Origin: Xanthomarina spongicola
Lineage (GTDB): Bacteria; Bacteroidota; Bacteroidia; Flavobacteriales; Flavobacteriaceae
NCBI RefSeq assembly: GCF_003148645.1
Contig: NZ_QGGP01000007.1
Coordinates: 62,001-126,000 of the forward strand
Length of the DNA: 64,000 nucleotides
Direction of reading: 5' to 3'
In this document: positions 55,236 to 64,000 of the stretch, one piece after another
Layout of the letters: each line of letters starts with the position of its first letter
Position numbering within the stretch: the stretch's first letter is position 1
The notes under the pieces: model-generated
What the model saw: only the letters and a program-made list of their open reading frames with translations
The model's database searches: none
Told to the model about the DNA's origin: nothing
Position numbers and translations under genes: made by a program

Positions 55236-56006
55236 ATGATAAAGTTTTTTAGAAAATTACGTGAAAACATGATTAAAGAGAACAGAGTAAGTAAGTATAT
55301 TCTTTATGCCATTGGCGAAATCATCCTAGTGGTTATTGGTATTCTCATTGCTTTACAAATAAACAATACTAACGAAGCGAATAAAGCAAGAGTAAAAGAA
55401 TTGCATTATCTTAAAAACATCAAAACCGATTTACTCCTAAACATAGATAACATCAATAGTTTTATTGAAACCAGAGAAACTAAAATTAAATCGGCAAACA
55501 TTGTTTTGGAGTATTATGAGGGGAAACCTCTCTCTAATCTTAATGATTTCAATAAAAATATTTTAAACGTATATATCTGGCATAAATTCTATCAAATAAA
55601 CAACACCTTTTTAGAATTAACCAACTCAGGAAATCTAGCAACAATATCAAATGATTCTATAAAGAACGGTTTACTAAATATAGATGCGCTTTATAAAGAA
55701 TTAAAAGGCGAAGAAGAGCATTATCGTTTTGACACAGAGGTACTACTTTATGAGCCTTCGTTTAATGTTTTAGACTTAAATCCACTAACAAAAAAATTCA
55801 TGTACGATGTTAGTAATGGCCAAGCTGGAGAAAATACTGAAATACCTAGAGAAAATTTTGAAACACTTTTAAAAGACACCAAACATAAAAATGGCTTCGT
55901 AATGGCAGTTTATGAATTTACAGTTATGAACGGTCAATTAGCAACCATGAAAAACATGTCTGAAGAACTTATACAACTAATTGATAAGGAACTAAAAAAA
56001 GGATAA
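55236..56006 (+). CDS. DUF6090 family membrane-anchored protein
   Basis: A 256-residue protein. The N-terminal block 'MIKFFRKLRENMIKENRVSK' plus 'YILYAIGEIILVVIGILIAL' and 'QINN' is the signature of the DUF6090 family, a single membrane helix near residues 22-44 preceded by a basic amphipathic segment. The rest is a soluble helical domain facing the periplasm. Function unknown in the family. The next paralog starts at the base after its stop. Confidence 0.88.
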   Translation: MIKFFRKLRENMIKENRVSKYILYAIGEIILVVIGILIALQINNTNEANKARVKELHYLKNIKTDLLLNIDNINSFIETRETKIKSANIVLEYYEGKPLSNLNDFNKNILNVYIWHKFYQINNTFLELTNSGNLATISNDSIKNGLLNIDALYKELKGEEEHYRFDTEVLLYEPSFNVLDLNPLTKKFMYDVSNGQAGENTEIPRENFETLLKDTKHKNGFVMAVYEFTVMNGQLATMKNMSEELIQLIDKELKKG

Positions 56007-56720
56007 ATGATTAAATTCTTCAGAAAAATAAGGCAGAACATGATAAAAGAGAACAAAGTTAGCAAATACATGCTGTATGCTATTGGAGAAATCATACTCG
56101 TGGTTATTGGTATTTTAATTGCGCTTCAAATAAATAATTGGAATGATACACGAAAGAATCAAAAATATGAACAAGAAATCCTGCTTTTAATTAATCAAAA
56201 TTTAAAAAATGATTCACTTGCTTTATCCCTTGAATTAATTAAAGCAAAGAAAGCTACTTTATTAACAAACCGATTAATAGAGCAAGTTGCTTCAGGGAAT
56301 TATGGTGATAGTTTAAACTATTGGATGGGAAATATTATTTCATTTGAAAGATTTAAATCACAATCAAGCGCCTTTGAGGTATTAAAATCAAAAGGGATAG
56401 AAACAATTTCTGACAATGAACTCCAATTAGCATTAATATCTTATTACGATGAAACTTTATATAATATACATCAATCACTTAACGATGTAAGTGACTCCTT
56501 TAAAACAGATTGGATTCCAATAATAAAACAAGATTTTTCAGATTTTAAATGGCGTGAGTATTGTATACCTATAGATTCTAAAGTATTTTTTGAAAATCCA
56601 TCAACCATTACTTTTTTCAAAATTTATAAGGATAATCGATCAGGTTCTGTGCAAAATATTGAATTAGCATTAGATAAAATATCTGAAATAAGAATATTAA
56701 TTAATAAAGGTTTAAAATGA
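56007..56720 (+). CDS. DUF6090 family membrane-anchored protein, second copy
   Basis: A 237-residue paralog with the same N-terminal anchor ('IGEIILVVIGILIALQINNW') and a different periplasmic helical domain. Its first 85 bases (56007-56091) are identical to 56717-56801, the start of a truncated third copy. Its stop overlaps the ATG of that third copy by 4 nt. Confidence 0.88.
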   Translation: MIKFFRKIRQNMIKENKVSKYMLYAIGEIILVVIGILIALQINNWNDTRKNQKYEQEILLLINQNLKNDSLALSLELIKAKKATLLTNRLIEQVASGNYGDSLNYWMGNIISFERFKSQSSAFEVLKSKGIETISDNELQLALISYYDETLYNIHQSLNDVSDSFKTDWIPIIKQDFSDFKWREYCIPIDSKVFFENPSTITFFKIYKDNRSGSVQNIELALDKISEIRILINKGLK

Positions 56721-56884
56721 TTAAATTCTTCAGAAAAATAAGGCAGAACATGATAAAAGAGAACAAAGTTAGCAAATACATGCTGTATGCTATTGGAGAA
56801 ACCATCCTCGTGGTTATTGGTATTTTAATTGCCTTAAGCATCAACAACTATAATGAATACATAAAACATATAAATTTTAACTAA
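56717..56884 (+). CDS. Truncated DUF6090 copy (55 residues)
   Basis: A short frame starting at the ATG overlapping the previous stop and ending with TAA at 56882-56884. It encodes just the DUF6090 N-terminal anchor ('MIKFFRKIRQNMIKENKVSK', then 'IGETILVVIGILIAL') and a 15-residue unrelated tail. Eighty-five bases are identical to the second copy, so this is either a recent partial duplication or the remnant of a full third gene. It may still make a small membrane peptide, but a decayed gene is as likely. Confidence 0.7.
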   Translation: MIKFFRKIRQNMIKENKVSKYMLYAIGETILVVIGILIALSINNYNEYIKHINFN

Positions 56885-56920: not shown

Positions 56921-58060
56921 ATGAAAGCAAAATCCATAAAAGGACATTCTACTTCAGAAATAAAAACAGCTTTAACTCAAAGTATGGCAGATGGTTTTAA
57001 ACCCACTTTGGCCATCGTCTTTTTATCTATAAGTCAAGATAGAAAATCAATTTGTCAACTTCTAGATAAAGAAAATATTGCTATCTATGGATCTACAAGC
57101 AATGGTGAGTTTATCGACGAAGAAAATGAAAAAGAATCGACAGCAATTTTGTTAATGGATATTAAAAGAGAACATTTTAAAATTTACCTCGAAGAATATC
57201 CCAATAAAAACTATCGTGAAACTGCAAAAAACATAGCTTCAAAAGCAAAAAAAGAATTTAAAAAACCTGCATTCTTAATTGCTGCAAGTCATCTAGAAAC
57301 TGATGCCGAACAATTACTGTATGGTTTTGAAGATATTATTGGAAAGCATGTTAATGTTTTTGGAGGAATGGCAGGAGACGATTATACATTTTCAGATCAA
57401 TTTGTTTTTACAAATGGAAAAGAAAGCAATATTGGAACTGTAGTCTTAGCTTTAGATGAAAACAACATAAAGATTAAAGGAGTTGCCACCTGTGGCTGGA
57501 AAGCTGTAGGCACTGAAAAAACCGTTACTAAAAGCGAAGGTAATCATGTTTATACTGTAGATAATATTCCTGTATTAGATATTACCACAAAATATGGTGG
57601 TTTAGAAAATGTAACTCCCGAAAACGAAAATTTATTACTTGAGATCGCTGCCAATTTTCCCTTGCAATTACAAAGAGAAAAAGGCGACCCTGTAATGCGA
57701 CCTGGTTTGGTTGTTGACTGGAGTGATCGTTCCTTTTATTGTAGTGGGTCTGTACCACAAGGTTCTAAAGTTCGCTTTTCACTACCACCAGATTTTGATG
57801 TGATGGACAAAGTAATTAAAGGTGTTCAACACTTAAAAGATACTGAAATGCCTGAAGCAGATGCTTTAGTCGTTTTTAGTTGTGCAGGAAGAATTTTATC
57901 TCTTGGACCACTAATGAATCTAGAGTTGGAAGGCGTGAAGAATGTATGGAATATACCAATGGCTGGTATGTTCTCTAATGGAGAATTAGCCAGAGCAACA
58001 GGTGGCAACCTTGAAATGCACAACCTAACAACTTGTTGTGTTGCACTAAAAGAAAAATAA
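56921..58060 (+). CDS. FIST signal-transduction protein, paralog 1
   Basis: A 379-residue soluble protein made of the FIST N and C domains. Landmarks are 'GFKPTLAIVFLS', 'IAIYGSTSNGEFID', 'VFGGMAGDD', 'IKGVATCGWKAVGTEKTVTK', 'CSGSVPQGSKVRFSLPPDFD', 'ADALVVFSCAGRILSLGPLM' and 'NIPMAGMFSNGEL', with a vicinal Cys pair in the C-terminal 'TTCCVALKEK'. FIST domains are predicted small-ligand sensors linked to kinases and cyclases. It heads the operon, 36 nt after the truncated DUF6090 copy. No signal peptide or membrane segment, so it is cytosolic. Confidence 0.92.
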   Translation: MKAKSIKGHSTSEIKTALTQSMADGFKPTLAIVFLSISQDRKSICQLLDKENIAIYGSTSNGEFIDEENEKESTAILLMDIKREHFKIYLEEYPNKNYRETAKNIASKAKKEFKKPAFLIAASHLETDAEQLLYGFEDIIGKHVNVFGGMAGDDYTFSDQFVFTNGKESNIGTVVLALDENNIKIKGVATCGWKAVGTEKTVTKSEGNHVYTVDNIPVLDITTKYGGLENVTPENENLLLEIAANFPLQLQREKGDPVMRPGLVVDWSDRSFYCSGSVPQGSKVRFSLPPDFDVMDKVIKGVQHLKDTEMPEADALVVFSCAGRILSLGPLMNLELEGVKNVWNIPMAGMFSNGELARATGGNLEMHNLTTCCVALKEK

Positions 58061-58076
58061 TTAAACTATAATAAAT

Positions 58077-58385
58077 ATGTATAAATTAACTGTATTGTAT
58101 GGTCATCCAACAAATGCTGAGGCCTTCGAGAAATACTACAAAGAGAAACACTTACCACTAGCTTCAACTATGGAAGGTGTCGATAAACTTGAAGTAACCA
58201 AGTTACTTGGAACACCAGATGGTCAAAAAGCCGATTATTATAGAATGGCAGAAATGTACTTTTCTAGTGTTGAGCAAATGCAAGAAACCATGGCTTCTCC
58301 AGAAGGACAAGCAACCGTTAACGATCTATCCAACTTCGCCACAGGTGGTGTAAACGTGATTGTTGGAGTTACAGAAAATGATTAA
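58077..58385 (+). CDS. EthD family protein (dimeric alpha-beta barrel)
   Basis: A 102-residue protein matching the EthD family: 'MYKLTVLYGHPTNAEAFEKY', 'YKEKHLPLA' (H of the family motif), 'VTKLLGTPDGQKADYYRMAE' with 'YFSSVEQMQETMASPEGQAT'. Members are dimeric ferredoxin-like folds, often involved in the metabolism of aromatic or ether compounds. Here it sits between FIST genes 1 and 2 with 16- and 15-nt gaps, so it is part of the same transcript. A role in making or binding the FIST ligand is a guess. Confidence 0.88.
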   Translation: MYKLTVLYGHPTNAEAFEKYYKEKHLPLASTMEGVDKLEVTKLLGTPDGQKADYYRMAEMYFSSVEQMQETMASPEGQATVNDLSNFATGGVNVIVGVTEND

Positions 58386-58400
58386 AAAACATTCCAATAA

Positions 58401-59540
58401 ATGATTTCAAAAACAGTAAAAGGCAATTCAACCGAAGCTATCAAAAAAGAAATTGACAAGGCAACTTCTGATGGTTTCGAGCCAACATTAGCCATTGTTT
58501 TCACTTCAATTAAACAAGACTGGAAAGCTATTATTGATGTATTGAACCAAAAAGAAATTGCTGTTTTTGGAGCTACTACATCAGGAGAGTTTATAGATGG
58601 AGATATTGAAGAAGGTAGCATAGTCATGATGCTGCTTGATATAAACCCTAAGCATTTCAGAGTTCTATTTCTTGAAACAGGTGAACATACAACCCATGAA
58701 AATGCAAAACAAATTGGTATAGCTGGAAAAAACACCTTTAATAATCCTGCTTTTATTATCGCTTCAGGTTGGTTGCACATAGATGGTGAAAAAATTATTG
58801 AAGGTATCATTAAAGGTTTTGGTAATGAAGTAACCGTTTTTGGAGGCATGGCAGGAGACGATTTAGCCATGCAAGGACCACTAGTTTTTACAAATGAAAA
58901 AAGTGCCGTGAATGGTTTGCTTGCATTAATTGTTGATGAAGATAAAATTGAAATCAATGGTATTGCTACTTGTGGTTGGAAGCCTATTGGGACCACCAAG
59001 ACTGTTACAAAAAGTGAAGGTAATATTGTTTATACCATAGATGATAAACCCGCTCTTGATATGGTCATGAAGTACCTTGGTCTCGATATAGATTTAGATT
59101 CTGGAAATGATGTTCTGACCAATATTGGAGCTTATTACCCTTTACAATTAGAAAGAGAAAATGTAACTCCTGTGATGCGTACTGCAATGTGGGGAAATAA
59201 AGAAGATCGTTCTCTTATTTGTGCAGGCACAGTGCCACAAGGAGCTAAAGTCAGGTTTTCACTTCCTCCAGATTTTGATGCTATTGAACAAGTTATTGAT
59301 GAATGCAAAGAAGTGAAAAAAGAACGGCAAAAGGAAGCTGATGCACTTATCATGTTTTCCTGTATTAGTCGTCATTTATCCTTTGGTATTTTAATGACAG
59401 AAGAAATTGAGCAGGTGAAACAAGTTTGGGACGCTCCTATGGTTGGTTTCTTTAGCTATGGAGAATTTGGAAAATCAAAAACAGGAAAGCACGAATTTCA
59501 CAATAACACCTGTTGTGTCGTGGCATTAAAAGAAAAATAA
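58401..59540 (+). CDS. FIST signal-transduction protein, paralog 2
   Basis: A 379-residue cytosolic FIST N-FIST C protein. It is closest to paralog 3: both share 'KEIDKATSDGF', 'GEFIDGDIEEGSIV', 'VFGGMAGDDL', 'IATCGW', 'TVTKSEGNIVYTIDDKPALD', 'FSLPPDFDAIE' and 'ADALIMFSC'. The C-terminus keeps the Cys pair ('NNTCCVVALKEK'). The next FIST gene starts 3 nt after its stop. Confidence 0.92.
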   Translation: MISKTVKGNSTEAIKKEIDKATSDGFEPTLAIVFTSIKQDWKAIIDVLNQKEIAVFGATTSGEFIDGDIEEGSIVMMLLDINPKHFRVLFLETGEHTTHENAKQIGIAGKNTFNNPAFIIASGWLHIDGEKIIEGIIKGFGNEVTVFGGMAGDDLAMQGPLVFTNEKSAVNGLLALIVDEDKIEINGIATCGWKPIGTTKTVTKSEGNIVYTIDDKPALDMVMKYLGLDIDLDSGNDVLTNIGAYYPLQLERENVTPVMRTAMWGNKEDRSLICAGTVPQGAKVRFSLPPDFDAIEQVIDECKEVKKERQKEADALIMFSCISRHLSFGILMTEEIEQVKQVWDAPMVGFFSYGEFGKSKTGKHEFHNNTCCVVALKEK

Positions 59541-59543
59541 AAG

Positions 59544-60686
59544 ATGAAATCAAAAACAATAAAAGCCAATTCCACAGAAACCATTATCAAAGAAATTGAT
59601 AAGGCAACTTCTGATGGATTCAAGCCAACTTTAGCAGTTGTTTTTTCTTCTATAAAGCGAGACTGGCTTAGCGTAATTAATGTTTTAAACAAAAAAGAAA
59701 TTACTGTATTTGGAGCTACAACTGCTGGAGAGTTTATTGATGGTGATATTGAAGAAGGTAGCATTGTCATCATGTTGCTCGATATGAATCCATCATCTTT
59801 TAAATTAATATTTCTTGAAACAAGTACAGAAACTACTTTAGAAGATGCAAAAAAACTAGGAGGTATTGGAAAAGAAACCTTTACTAATCCTGCATTCATC
59901 ATAGCAACAGGTGGAATTTTCATAGATGGCGAACAAATTGTGGATGGCATCATGCAAGGTTTTGGAGAGGAAGTCACCATTTTTGGAGGGATGGCAGGAG
60001 ATGATTTGATTGCTGAAAAACCCATTGTTTTTACCAACAATAAAAATAAAGATAACGCCTTAATAGCACTCATCATAGATGAAGACAAAATAGATGTAAG
60101 AGGTATCGCTACCTGTGGCTGGAATGCTATTGGCACCACAAAAACTGTGACTAAAAGCGAAGGCAATATTGTATATACCATTGACGACAAACCAGCATTG
60201 GATATGTTAATGAAATACCTTGGTGTAGATGTAAAGCAAGATAATAACACAGGCATCGTTGCATTTCACAATTCTTGGTATTACCCACTTCAATTGGAAA
60301 GAGAAAACGGTGATACTGTAATACGTGCAACCAGATTTGCAAACAGTGAAGATCGTTCACTTATCTGTACTGGAAGCGTACCTCAAGGTGCTCAAATCAA
60401 GTTTTCACTGCCACCAGATTTTGACGCCATAGAAACAGTGGTTGCAGAATGTGCGAGTATTAAAGATAATGAGCAACAACAGGCAGATGCTTTAATTATG
60501 TTCTCGTGTGTAAGCAGACATCTATCGTTTGGAGCTTTAATGAAAGAAGAAATAGAACAAGTTCAAAACGTTTGGAATGCACCTATGGTAGGCTTTTTTA
60601 CTTATGGCGAATATGGTAAATCAAAAATTGGCACAAATGAATTTCACAACAATGCCTGTTGTGTTGTAGCCCTAAAAGAAAAATAA
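59544..60686 (+). CDS. FIST signal-transduction protein, paralog 3
   Basis: A 380-residue FIST N-FIST C protein, sister of paralog 2. Variable positions between the two concentrate around residues 90-125 ('LIFLETSTETTLEDAKKLGG' here) and 232-262 ('VDVKQDNNTGIVAFHNSWYY'), which may be ligand-facing. The C-terminus is 'NNACCVVALKEK'. Gaps of 3 nt to both neighbours indicate tight translational coupling. Confidence 0.92.
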   Translation: MKSKTIKANSTETIIKEIDKATSDGFKPTLAVVFSSIKRDWLSVINVLNKKEITVFGATTAGEFIDGDIEEGSIVIMLLDMNPSSFKLIFLETSTETTLEDAKKLGGIGKETFTNPAFIIATGGIFIDGEQIVDGIMQGFGEEVTIFGGMAGDDLIAEKPIVFTNNKNKDNALIALIIDEDKIDVRGIATCGWNAIGTTKTVTKSEGNIVYTIDDKPALDMLMKYLGVDVKQDNNTGIVAFHNSWYYPLQLERENGDTVIRATRFANSEDRSLICTGSVPQGAQIKFSLPPDFDAIETVVAECASIKDNEQQQADALIMFSCVSRHLSFGALMKEEIEQVQNVWNAPMVGFFTYGEYGKSKIGTNEFHNNACCVVALKEK

Positions 60687-60689
60687 AAA

Positions 60690-61850
60690 ATGAGATCAAA
60701 ATCAATACATGGTAAATCTGTTTCTGACATCCAAAGTGAATTGGATAATGCAATGGTTGATAGATTTAACCCAACATTAGCCATTGTCTTTATTTCTGTA
60801 AAGCAAGACAGAAACGCTATATGTAAATTGTTAGATTCCAAAAACTTGGATGTATTTGGTGCCACATCCTGTGGCGAGTTTATAAATGGACACCAAACTA
60901 AAGGTGAAATTGCCATTTTACTTTTAGAATTATCAAAAGATCATTACACCATTCTTTTTGAAGACATAGGAGATAGAACCTTGGATGAAACAGTTTCAAA
61001 TCTGGCTAATACTGCCTTGAAACAATTTATTAATCCCTCGCTTATAGTTTGCAGTCCAGGCGTTAACGAAAAAGAAGAAATTTTTGAAGGCGAGAAAATG
61101 GTAAAAAGACTTGAAGAAAGCCTCGGACCAGATAAAATTTTCTTTGGAGGTATGGCAGGAGATGATTGGTTATTTAAAGGAAGCTTTGTTTTTACAAATG
61201 AAAAAGAAACTGCTTGTGGACTTGTAGCTCTGGTATTAAACGCAGATAAAATTAATTTAAAAGGAATGGCCATTACTGGTTGGAAACCTTTGGGAATTAC
61301 AAGGACAGTTACTAAAAGCAATGACAATTTACTTTACGAGATAGATAATAAATCTGCTGTTGAACTATACTTGAAATATTTAGGGAAAGAAGGCAAAATA
61401 ACAGAAAACAATTTTAATGTATTTATAGAGTTAGGATTTGAATATCCATTCATAGTAGAAAGGGATAAAAACGAAACAATACTAATAACACCAATGAAAA
61501 TTGACAGTAATGAAAAAGCACTTGTCATGAATCTACCTATATCAGAAGGCACAAAATTTTGGTTTACCAATCCTCCAGATTTCGATATTGTTGAAGAGGT
61601 AATTGAAAAAGCAACCCAATTAAAACAAGATTCTAAAGAAGAAGCCGATGCCATGTTGATTTTTTCATGCGCAGGAAGACACCCTATTCTTGGACCAATG
61701 GTAACAGATGAAAATGAAAGACTCGCTGAAACGTGGAATACACCAATGGCTGGTTTTTTTACCTATGGTGAATTTGGACGCGTGCTAAATGGCAAACAAA
61801 ATTTTCATTCAGGAGCATGTTGTTGGGTAACCCTAAAAGAAAAAGAATGA
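60690..61850 (+). CDS. FIST signal-transduction protein, paralog 4 (divergent)
   Basis: A 386-residue FIST N-FIST C protein and the most divergent of the four. It keeps 'VFGATSCGEFING', 'FFGGMAGDDW', 'MAITGWKPLGITRTVTKSND' and 'ADAMLIFSCAGRHPILGPMV', plus the Cys pair 'SGACCWVTLKEKE'. But the 'C(S/A/T)G(S/T)VPQG' loop of the others is replaced by 'MNLPISEGTKFWFTNPPDFD'. It may recognise a different ligand or act as the adaptor to the kinase. Its last codons overlap the kinase start by 4 nt. Confidence 0.9.
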   Translation: MRSKSIHGKSVSDIQSELDNAMVDRFNPTLAIVFISVKQDRNAICKLLDSKNLDVFGATSCGEFINGHQTKGEIAILLLELSKDHYTILFEDIGDRTLDETVSNLANTALKQFINPSLIVCSPGVNEKEEIFEGEKMVKRLEESLGPDKIFFGGMAGDDWLFKGSFVFTNEKETACGLVALVLNADKINLKGMAITGWKPLGITRTVTKSNDNLLYEIDNKSAVELYLKYLGKEGKITENNFNVFIELGFEYPFIVERDKNETILITPMKIDSNEKALVMNLPISEGTKFWFTNPPDFDIVEEVIEKATQLKQDSKEEADAMLIFSCAGRHPILGPMVTDENERLAETWNTPMAGFFTYGEFGRVLNGKQNFHSGACCWVTLKEKE

Positions 61851-62893
61851 ACCAACACCTACAACATATTTTAGATTTTATTGAAAGTTCAAATCACTTT
61901 TCTGAAGATGACAAAGCTGCCTTATTAAAATCGGTAAAAAGTGCCGATAAAGATTTGCTCATTTCAGATTTTAAATTAGAACGAACTGAAAAAGTAAAAC
62001 GCACCACTGCTATTTTATTAGAGGAAACCATTGAAGAATTAGAGCATAAACGAAAAGCTATAGAAGACACAAAAAATGCACTTCAAAAATCGTTAGATGA
62101 GCTTAAAGCGACTCAAACACAACTAATTCAATCTGAAAAAATGGCAAGTTTAGGTGAATTGACTGCTGGTATTGCACATGAAATTCAAAACCCCTTAAAC
62201 TTCGTCAATAATTTTTCAGAAGTCAGTAAAGAATTGCTAGAAGAGATGCTAGAAGAGCTTCAAAATGGCGACATGGAAGAAGTCAATGCCATTGCTCAAG
62301 ATGTCATTCAGAATCTAGAGAAAATAAACCACCATGGAAAACGTGCAGATGGTATTGTAAAAGGCATGTTACAACATAGTCGAAGCAGTTCTGGAGTAAA
62401 AGAATTAACAGATATCAATGTTTTGGTAGATGAATATTTACGCCTGGCTTATCATGGCTTACGTGCCAAAGACAAATCGTTTAATGCTGCATTAGAAACA
62501 CATTTAGATGATTCCATTGGAAAAATAGAAATTGTGCCACAAGACTTTGGAAGAGTTGTATTAAACCTAATAACCAATGCCTTTTATGCTTGTAATGAAA
62601 AGAAAAAAATGCAAATTGAAGGATATGAACCTAAAGTAACTGTTGAAACAAAAAAAAATAAAGATTTTATAGAAATTCAAGTTCAAGACAATGGTAATGG
62701 TATTCCTAAAAAAGTATTGGATAAAATATTTCAACCATTTTTTACAACCAAACCTACTGGACAAGGGACAGGATTAGGCTTATCCTTAAGTTACGATATT
62801 ATTAAAGCACATGGTGGCGACATTAAAGTAAACACCAAAGAAAACGAAGGCACAGCATTCATTATCACATTGCCAACAACCAAAAACGCATGA
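61847..62893 (+). CDS. Soluble sensor-less histidine kinase
   Basis: A 348-residue cytosolic kinase starting at the ATG at 61847, which overlaps the FIST4 stop; an earlier in-frame ATG at 61817 lies wholly inside FIST4 and is less likely. The first 55 residues are polar helix, residues 56-100 a coiled coil ('EETIEELEHKRKAIEDTKNA'). H111 in 'ELTAGIAHEIQNPLNF' is the phosphoacceptor. The HATPase has 'LNLITNAFYAC', 'VQDNGNGIPKKVLDKIFQPF', 'FTTKPTGQGTGLGLSLSYDI'. No PAS, GAF, receiver or membrane segment is present, so the signal should come from partner proteins, plausibly the FIST paralogs. Confidence 0.93.
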   Translation: MNQHLQHILDFIESSNHFSEDDKAALLKSVKSADKDLLISDFKLERTEKVKRTTAILLEETIEELEHKRKAIEDTKNALQKSLDELKATQTQLIQSEKMASLGELTAGIAHEIQNPLNFVNNFSEVSKELLEEMLEELQNGDMEEVNAIAQDVIQNLEKINHHGKRADGIVKGMLQHSRSSSGVKELTDINVLVDEYLRLAYHGLRAKDKSFNAALETHLDDSIGKIEIVPQDFGRVVLNLITNAFYACNEKKKMQIEGYEPKVTVETKKNKDFIEIQVQDNGNGIPKKVLDKIFQPFFTTKPTGQGTGLGLSLSYDIIKAHGGDIKVNTKENEGTAFIITLPTTKNA

Positions 62894-64000
62894 AACTGAC
62901 CAAAAAAATAGAAACCGAAATCTGGAAGATTTATGATACTTGGATGCAAGGATACCTGAATGCAGATGTCGAAACATATAATTATTATTTTGATGAAGAC
63001 TATCATTTTATAGGCTCGACAAACAATGAAGAATTTCTAAACAAAAAAGATACTACAGATTTTTTTAGAGCTACAGGAGACCAATTTGCAGGATTGACAG
63101 ATTTGCGCAAGGAAACTAAAACACTTGAAGTATTTGGAGAACATGTTTTTTTAACCCATTTTTTTGATGCTTGGTTTAAAAACGATAAGGACTGGAGTTA
63201 TTATGGGAGATTTCGATTTTCTTCTGTAATGCATAAAACTAAAGAAGGCTGGCGTTTTATATATCAACATTTTTCGATGCCAGACTCTAAATCTGAAGAA
63301 GGGCAAACCATTGGCTTCGATAAAGTCCATCTTGAAAATCAAGAGCTTCGAGAAGCTATTCTACGTAGAACTACTGAGCTGGAGCAAAAAAATCGTGAAC
63401 TCGAAGTAGAAACAGCTTTAGAACGTATTCGTGCTCAAGCAGTTGCCATGAAAGAATCTTCAGACTTACTTGATATCGTGGTTACTATGCGTAACGAATT
63501 TATTAAACTAGGTCATGAAGCCCATTATTTCTGGCATATGATGTGGTTGCCAAAAACCTATGAAAAAGCGATGACTTCTGGTGATGGTAGCAAAATTGGT
63601 TTTGTCATGGAGTTACCAAGACATATTCATGGTGACATTCCTCAATTAGCAAAATGGGAAAAAAGCAAAAAACCAACCGTTGTGTATGCTATGAATATTG
63701 ACGAAGCCATTGATTATGTTGACAAAATGGTCAACTTAGGTGATTTTCAAAGTATAGATCCGCAAGCACCAACTCATGATGACATTAAACATATTGGTGG
63801 TTTGACCTTTATTATGGCAAGAACCACTCATGGAGAAATAGGTTACTCTTTGCCAGGAATAGTGAAAAATCCACCTGCAGAAGATCTAGATATTTTAATA
63901 CAATTTGCAGGAGCTTTCGACTTAGCACATCGAAGGTTTTTAGACCTTCAAAAAGCTGAAAAGCAAGCTAAAGAAGTGAAGATAGAATTGGCACTTGAAA
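62890..64000 (+). CDS. NTF2-like/coiled-coil/sensor protein, 5' part only
   Basis: The ATG at 62890 overlaps the kinase stop (ATGA), and the frame is open to the window edge, 370 codons without a stop. Residues 1-130 look like a SnoaL/NTF2 fold with aromatic pocket residues ('WKIYDTWMQGYLNADVETYN', 'VFLTHFFDAWFKNDKDWSYY', 'FIYQHFSMPDS'). Residues 145-195 are a coiled coil ('TELEQKNRELEVETALERIR'). From about 200 a GAF-like sensory domain follows ('LGHEAHYFWHMMWLPKTYEK', 'GGLTFIMARTTHGEIGY'), then another helix starts. In Bacteroidota such N-termini are usually followed by a kinase or cyclase output domain, here beyond the edge. Confidence 0.75.
   Translation, partial: MKLTKKIETEIWKIYDTWMQGYLNADVETYNYYFDEDYHFIGSTNNEEFLNKKDTTDFFRATGDQFAGLTDLRKETKTLEVFGEHVFLTHFFDAWFKNDKDWSYYGRFRFSSVMHKTKEGWRFIYQHFSMPDSKSEEGQTIGFDKVHLENQELREAILRRTTELEQKNRELEVETALERIRAQAVAMKESSDLLDIVVTMRNEFIKLGHEAHYFWHMMWLPKTYEKAMTSGDGSKIGFVMELPRHIHGDIPQLAKWEKSKKPTVVYAMNIDEAIDYVDKMVNLGDFQSIDPQAPTHDDIKHIGGLTFIMARTTHGEIGYSLPGIVKNPPAEDLDILIQFAGAFDLAHRRFLDLQKAEKQAKEVKIELALE

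Follow-up and report, generated by a model that had tools for sequence, protein, structure and literature searches.

FIST paralogues encoded with a sensor-less histidine kinase and a receiver-linked class III cyclase: a conserved candidate trans-sensing cassette of Bacteroidota

The described systems closest to the locus considered here are those of NosP, a separate FIST protein that acts on the sensor-less kinases NahK/NosK according to PMC12570481 and PMC11237717, and Pycsar, which pairs a PycC cyclase with the membrane protein PycTM. Here we describe a gene cassette of Xanthomarina spongicola (Flavobacteriaceae) that begins near the end of a 64,000-nucleotide stretch of DNA (hereinafter the window; NZ_QGGP01000007.1, C7:62001-126000 of a 3.16 Mb genome). 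It combines four FIST genes, a soluble histidine kinase (HK), a giant HK with an array of GAF-like repeats (GAF-array HK) and, beyond the window, a lone receiver (REC), a REC-class III cyclase fusion (REC-cyclase) and a PycTM-family protein. Like the NosP–NahK/NosK–NarR/NosR systems, as those papers present them, it has a separate FIST gene beside an HK without a recognized sensor domain and a response regulator handling a nucleotide messenger. Unlike them, it has up to four FIST paralogues together with an EthD-family gene, GAF-array HKs and, as a probable further difference, a FIST-linked adaptor on its kinase, while its output is an adenylyl-type class III cyclase as opposed to their c-di-GMP enzyme. 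With Pycsar it shares a class III cyclase gene directly before that of a PycTM-family membrane protein; it differs in the receiver domain and adenylyl-type residues of the cyclase, the kinase genes alongside, and the lack of defence genes among 10 proteins flanking the cassette. An earlier note on the window had proposed separate FIST subunits that serve a sensor-less kinase. The concept is not new, since such action in trans is already known from NosP with NahK/NosK. What differs here is the set of paralogues, the adaptor, the GAF-array HK and the PycTM output. We file the cassette under trans-sensing FIST two-component systems, as a variant. Literature searches (FIST; FIST with adenylate cyclase in Bacteroidetes; PycTM with two-component systems) returned no paper on the arrangement, which is weak evidence of absence as subscription journals were thinly covered.

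We consider that the cassette probably constitutes a cytosolic many-input two-component system with a nucleotide cyclase as its output. The FIST-kinase cassette recurs in conserved form among Bacteroidota. Scanning with FIST3, a query that picks up close relatives only, yielded 19 named loci, all from this phylum. Wherever the stretch extends so far, these loci keep the order FIST(s)-(EthD)-HK-(GAF-array HKs)-REC-REC-cyclase, in many cases with PycTM next. The REC-cyclase is present in all 19 genomes (14 by their own search, the other five being G037, G038, G054, G069 and G101; G and L numbers are our designations of genomes and loci), and an EthD gene lies inside the cassette in nine of the 19 loci, some of which are incomplete. 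The earlier note had staked its proposal on FIST-kinase adjacency being kept in related genomes, and so it is. We further sampled 199 genomes of Flavobacteriaceae and 345 across the phylum. Pfam FIST domains occur in 63 of the former; ten genomes carry a multi-FIST cluster of the window type, and all ten have a REC-cyclase orthologue, which is otherwise found in 10 of the remaining 189 (one, G005, by a partial match), i.e., in 20 of the 199. The corresponding Fisher probability is 9e-12, without correction for relatedness. An eleventh genome, G080, has one FIST of the window type (57% identical) in the order FIST-HK-REC-cyclase-PycTM, with a REC-cyclase only 31% identical. The FISTs of the other 52 genomes reach best identities of 24–31% to the window FISTs, with the partial FIST of G049 giving no match.

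All four FIST open reading frames of the window exceed the Pfam cut-offs for both FIST (91.9–112.4 bits against 23.2) and FIST_C (63.2–83.1 bits against 28.5). This bears out the earlier note's description of four full-length FISTs in a packed run that leads into an HK, except that it overlooked the EthD gene between FIST1 and FIST2. Searched with Pfam FIST, the entire genome gives four matches, namely these four proteins. FIST2 and FIST3 are 69% identical, while the remaining pairs are 38–48% identical. In a tree of 106 rows, built by a quick method with support by SH-aLRT only, each of four clades holds one window FIST plus FISTs of other families: F1 (24 rows, support 99), F2 (14 rows, support 88, below the starred level), F3 (18 rows, 100) and F4 (23 rows, 100). 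A fifth line, F5, comprises nine rows without a window member. As judged from this tree, FIST1–4 are old, separately conserved paralogues, in line with the earlier note's view of them as diversified separate subunits. A recent local duplication is rejected because the window FISTs fall into four separate clades. Across 56 FIST rows the near-invariant residues include W193, C322, R325 and H368, while 28 positions differ between the FIST groups. An AlphaFold2 model of FIST3 (pLDDT 89.8) retrieves FBXO22 as all of its top four PDB matches (8ua3: E 5.2e-9; TM-scores 0.52 and 0.60). The model thus has a fold like that of the FIST domain of this eukaryotic ubiquitin ligase subunit, from which it differs in function and to which it is only 11% identical. 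Sequence searches of FIST3 and PycTM against solved structures gave nothing useful. In Gelidibacter algens (L054:9959-11165) FIST3 is broken into two reading frames, and the kinase likewise. Separately, in L067, L106/L107 and L109 a divergent FIST-like protein of 398–400 aa is encoded directly upstream of, and in the same orientation as, a class III cyclase of 441–446 aa. Its FIST domain is Pfam-confirmed for L067 (G075) only, the others giving weak profile matches, and these neighbours are a possible candidate FIST-cyclase pair without a kinase.

The link between the FISTs and the soluble HK is most apparent in the N-terminus of the latter. Its HisKA and HATPase-type matches start at residue ~100, with ~98 residues preceding the core, and residues 1–95 have no Pfam match at E 0.01 and no PDB sequence match at E 0.1, which agrees with the earlier description of a soluble kinase without a recognizable sensor. 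Kinases were compared at 28 of 33 loci, these being the ones with a kinase below 480 aa after the last FIST; no kinase follows the FIST within the stretch in L047, L048, L049 and L053, and a length filter removed L042, whose kinase does bear the adaptor (found as L059). In 25 of the 28 the N-terminus is 60–98% identical to that of the window HK; lower values are seen in L065 and L102 (42%) and in L112 (19%), which has another FIST type. In nine of the 28 it is more conserved than the kinase core (e.g., 62 versus 48% in L108 and 63 versus 52% in L099), and in the remainder less so.

Using the 95 N-terminal residues as a query (E 1e-6), we found this adaptor, with one match each, in all 11 Flavobacteriaceae genomes with the window FIST type (the ten multi-FIST genomes and G080) and in none of the other 188, 52 of which have FISTs of another type. 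In a second set of 65 chosen genomes it is present, again with one match each, in 13 of 13 phylum-sample genomes with the window FIST type, where by coordinates it lies within ~120 nt after a FIST gene, and in 13 of 14 named genomes; G540, whose FIST contig (L049) stops inside a FIST gene, lacks it. It is absent from all 17 genomes of this set that have a REC-cyclase without the window FIST type, from 20 further Flavobacteriaceae, and from G510, a fourteenth phylum match that was set aside from the window type as its FIST is 31% identical. In both sampled sets adaptor and FIST type invariably go together, which fits the earlier proposal of FISTs acting on the kinase in trans. Moreover, in L104 and L101 the adaptor is joined to SpoIIE phosphatase domains, and in L059 and L098 to a repeat plus kinase, so that its partners comprise HK, repeat-HK, SpoIIE and repeats-SpoIIE, every one of them beside a FIST. 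Its presence on phosphatases indicates that it travels with the FIST and not with the kinase, and since it keeps its FIST neighbour while the output changes, contact with a FIST would best explain it. We read it as a putative FIST docking module. The alternative, that it is simply a generic coiled coil found in this line of kinases, was rejected given these SpoIIE fusions beside FISTs and its absence from the 17 genomes above and from 10 of 10 sampled Flavobacteriaceae with a REC-cyclase and no such FIST cluster (G119 being in both groups). The last ~20–30 residues of the adaptor weakly match other kinases.

The earlier note ended its view at the window edge, with the GAF-array HK and the REC, REC-cyclase and PycTM genes lying beyond, and took what follows the HK for an NTF2/GAF-like sensor protein. 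This is actually the part, cut by the window, of a kinase of 2334 aa that has SnoaL_3 at its N-terminus, ten repeats of ~190 aa and a HisKA/HATPase core, the gene of which ends 5,894 nt past the window. The repeats fall below every Pfam cut-off, and none of the 11 Pfam matches of the protein to E 1 is to a GAF family. A neighbouring pair of repeats from a relative was modelled (L037; pLDDT 90.5, 47 sequences), and the model displays two domains linked via a long helix. Its best match is a phytochrome GAF-PHY structure (8w26; E 2.4e-8, TM-scores 0.40 and 0.41), and every one of the 42 structures matched in the PDB at E <= 0.001 is that of a phytochrome, a protein with GAF and PHY domains. By this model the repeats have a GAF-type fold, the likeness to phytochromes lying in the tandem fold of the repeat pair; the cassette kinase differs from GAF-PHY modules in its ten repeats, ~11% identity and lack of a Pfam GAF match. 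The repeat count reaches 15 in a protein of L039 that runs off its stretch. The GAF-array HK and the small HK have kinase cores that agree at 207 of 288 positions (72%).

Class III adenylyl cyclases have two metal-binding aspartates, a lysine plus an aspartate or threonine that select adenine, and an asparagine and an arginine for the transition state. The REC-cyclase of the window genome has both metal Asp, the Lys and Thr, and the Asn and Arg, with the Lys and Thr aligning to those of a solved photoactivated adenylyl cyclase. The base-selecting positions hold Lys together with either Thr or Asp in every one of the 35 cyclase rows aligned (from 29 distinct genes, one partial); the pair is Lys/Asp in the G080 cyclase and in longer cyclases near other PycTM genes, while the Arg is replaced by Gln in G080 and by His in one L093 cyclase. 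These residues predict cAMP as the probable product. A REC-SpoIIE protein takes the place of final regulator in three distant genomes (L097, L103, L105), in two of which its gene is followed by one for a NosD-like beta-helix protein (L103:2028-3236 and L097:14315-15523). Elsewhere, an HD-YitT-DUF2179 membrane protein is encoded ~20 nt after the REC-cyclase, at the usual place of PycTM (L127:4552-6018 and L128:1067-2527), and is perhaps an alternative effector. Close PycTM relatives also lie near class III cyclases of 605–646 aa, sometimes on the opposite strand (L079, L080, L081, L093); the two of these longer cyclases that were scanned (L079, L080) are TPR-cyclases.

From these sequences we infer a course of events running from FIST ligands and FIST binding through phosphotransfer and cAMP production to PycTM action. 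Each FIST paralogue would be a soluble ligand-binding sensor. Co-occurrence and fusions suggest that FISTs dock on the ~75–95 N-terminal residues of the HK, as a FIST-specific adaptor, and the docked FIST would alter HK autophosphorylation as NosP does with NahK/NosK. The GAF-array HK would bring in further inputs through its ten repeats and phosphorylate the same receivers, a proposal based on the shared kinase core. The phosphate would then pass to the single REC, which may be a competing sink or relay, and to the REC-cyclase, with cAMP as the predicted messenger; here the domains are evident and the activity predicted. Most tentatively, cAMP might gate the downstream-encoded PycTM and/or act on CRP-type cNMP-binding proteins. 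In a broader form that we regard as possible, though with less confidence than the two-component system itself, an ancient FIST ensemble would dock on an adaptor swapped between HKs and SpoIIE phosphatases as a trans-sensing module; in Flavobacteriaceae it would drive a phosphorylation-gated adenylyl cyclase, with cAMP opening PycTM as a housekeeping Pycsar relative that works on cAMP.

Several distributional facts weigh against this proposal. The genome encodes four cNMP-binding proteins elsewhere, which could be the real cAMP receptors. As regards PycTM, the distribution speaks partly for the proposal. A relative at least 56% identical is present in 21 of the 199 genomes, 14 of which also have the REC-cyclase; in 12 of these 14 it lies within 200 bp of the cyclase, in one it is a gene away and in one it is on another contig, and among the named genomes PycTM follows the cyclase in nine of 14. 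Against it, PycTM is not beside the cyclase in seven of the 20 sampled REC-cyclase genomes (G005, G025, G037, G040, G104, G154, G182) and in five of the 14 named ones, and in the phylum sample it adjoins the cyclase in 3 of 21 genomes and not in the other 18, making the PycTM output mainly a feature of Flavobacteriaceae. Conversely, a close PycTM occurs without a REC-cyclase orthologue in seven sampled genomes. Among these, the PycTM of G080 follows that genome's own REC-cyclase; a longer cyclase lies close by in G103, G189 and G190; and for G047, G157 and G169 the cyclase profile found none in the stretch fetched. In the phylum sample the REC-cyclase occurs in 21 genomes and the window FIST type in 13, with both in just four; five of the nine such FIST genomes without the cyclase were seen to use SpoIIE phosphatases instead. 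The sampled genomes are also kin, such that the co-occurrence counts are not independent events. Finally, the FIST cluster is missing from 10 of the 20 sampled REC-cyclase genomes, where other kinases must drive the cyclase.

This last gap is one of two observations favoring the idea that the operon houses two independent systems, with the GAF-array HKs alone driving the REC and REC-cyclase while the FISTs and the small HK serve another target; the other is G271, in which ~130 kb of a single contig separate the FIST cluster from the cyclase. We nevertheless judge such a separation unlikely. The 11-kb contig L129 has a compact form of the cassette (four FISTs, EthD, HK, REC and REC-cyclase, without PycTM) in which the small HK is the sole kinase between the FISTs and the REC and REC-cyclase, although a kinase may exist further upstream, where only 73 nt of contig precede the first FIST. 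Likewise, no GAF-array HK was recognized in the 19.9 kb fetched for G080, and the closeness of the two kinase cores also speaks against separate targets.

It is equally unlikely that the cassette is the Bacteroidota counterpart of NosP/NahK, with haem-based nitric oxide sensing. The layout of a FIST, a sensor-less HK and a response regulator is indeed shared (PMC12570481), and NosP is the only NCBIfam match of each window FIST. However, FIST1–4 score just 33.8, 44.8, 59.2 and 31 bits on the NosP model (NF041558) against a cut-off of 450, and direct NosP orthology was rejected on this ground; five Flavobacteriaceae FISTs of other types score 34–75 bits, one of them somewhat nearer to NosP than the best window value of 59. 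Furthermore, the cassettes hold four to five paralogue lines against one in the NosP operons described there, and have a different output domain.

Still less probable, in our estimate, is an anti-phage system of the Pycsar type, in which infection would trigger the cyclase and PycTM would kill the cell. Among PADLOC models, the REC-cyclase does match those of PycC (88 bits at best) and the last cassette gene those of PycTM (95.1 bits). Against this, the cyclase has the Lys and Thr of a solved adenylyl cyclase, and two of its three base-selecting residues differ from those of PycC clades D and E reported in PMC11224242, the Phe being the same; this partial comparison covered clades D and E alone and went by residue offset from the metal Asp instead of by an alignment with PycC sequences. 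None of 10 flanking proteins matches PADLOC at E 1e-4, a VWA protein giving a marginal TerY match (E 0.0087), and in our judgement regulation, more than alarm, is what a conserved array of sensors and a receiver domain would serve. Canonical Pycsar was dropped on this partial evidence from the cyclase residues and the flanks. That the FISTs are enzymes or scaffolds and the cassette, EthD included, a metabolic unit with attached regulation is similarly improbable: the near-invariant Cys and His (C322 in 56/56 and H368 in 55/56 FIST rows) and the weak matches of the FIST3 model, after FBXO22, to cyclic amide hydrolase and chorismatase folds (E 6e-5 to 3e-3) would suit it, but all genes from the HK through the cyclase are signalling genes by domain, and relatives of the FISTs such as NosP regulate kinases (PMC12570481).

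The features of the two-component cassette are listed in Table 1. Its genes are closely spaced: the gaps flanking EthD are 16 and 15 nt, followed by 3 nt between FIST2 and FIST3, 3 nt between FIST3 and FIST4, and overlaps of 4 nt (-4) at both the FIST4-HK and HK-GAF-array HK junctions. The longest reading frame of the HK starts at 61817, with the ATG at 61847 being the start used here. Past the GAF-array HK the spacings are 5 nt to REC, -1 to REC-cyclase and 29 to PycTM, these three genes spanning ~2 kb.

Table 1. Genes and regions of the FIST-kinase cassette of X. spongicola (window coordinates, or locus coordinates for genes outside the window).
Feature	Position	Strand	Evidence
FIST1, 379 aa, clade F1	56921..58060	+	Pfam FIST 96.5 bits, FIST_C 63.2 bits
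EthD-family protein, 102 aa, optional cassette member	58077..58385	+	TIGR02118 96.2 bits, Pfam EthD 50 bits
FIST2, 379 aa, clade F2	58401..59540	+	Pfam FIST 112.4 bits
FIST3, 380 aa, clade F3	59544..60686	+	Pfam FIST 105.9 bits
FIST4, 386 aa, clade F4	60690..61850	+	Pfam FIST 91.9 bits
Soluble HK, 348 aa	61847..62893	+	HisKA 29.3 bits, HATPase_c 90.3 bits
HK N-terminal 95 aa, proposed FIST-docking adaptor	61847..62131	+	No Pfam match; tracks FIST type
GAF-array HK, start (2334 aa complete)	62890..64000	+	SnoaL_3, ten GAF-like repeats, HisKA, HATPase_c
Receiver (REC), 124 aa, outside window	L005:7101-7475	+	Response_reg 81.6 bits
REC-class III cyclase, 346 aa, outside window	L005:7475-8515	+	Response_reg 83.4 bits, Guanylate_cyc 83.9 bits
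PycTM-family membrane protein, 186 aa, outside window	L005:8545-9105	+	PycTM 60.5 bits (cut-off 27.2)

Around the cassette, two tandem DUF6090 genes and a third copy truncated to 55 codons lie just upstream of FIST1 (window 55236-56720 and 56717-56884), with longer DUF6090 runs near the cassette in relatives (eight in L039). Downstream of PycTM are the VWA protein and a 348-aa protein (L005:9181-11633; gaps of 75 and 2 nt). Among L037–L071 the VWA protein was matched only in Xanthomarina (L050/L056), while LYZ1037 has genes of equal lengths at this position.

On the whole, the interpretation in the earlier note is partly supported; interchangeable FIST partners that read several ligands, as it suggested, are a possibility. 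If our reading is right, the physical link between FIST and kinase would be defined as a module of ~75–95 aa without a Pfam match. The ligands of the FIST family are mostly unknown, and the FIST-kinase link could then be tested on purified proteins. PycTM effectors, in turn, would gain a role connected with cAMP and separate from anti-phage defence, and the cassette would provide a case of several soluble sensors feeding one kinase in trans.

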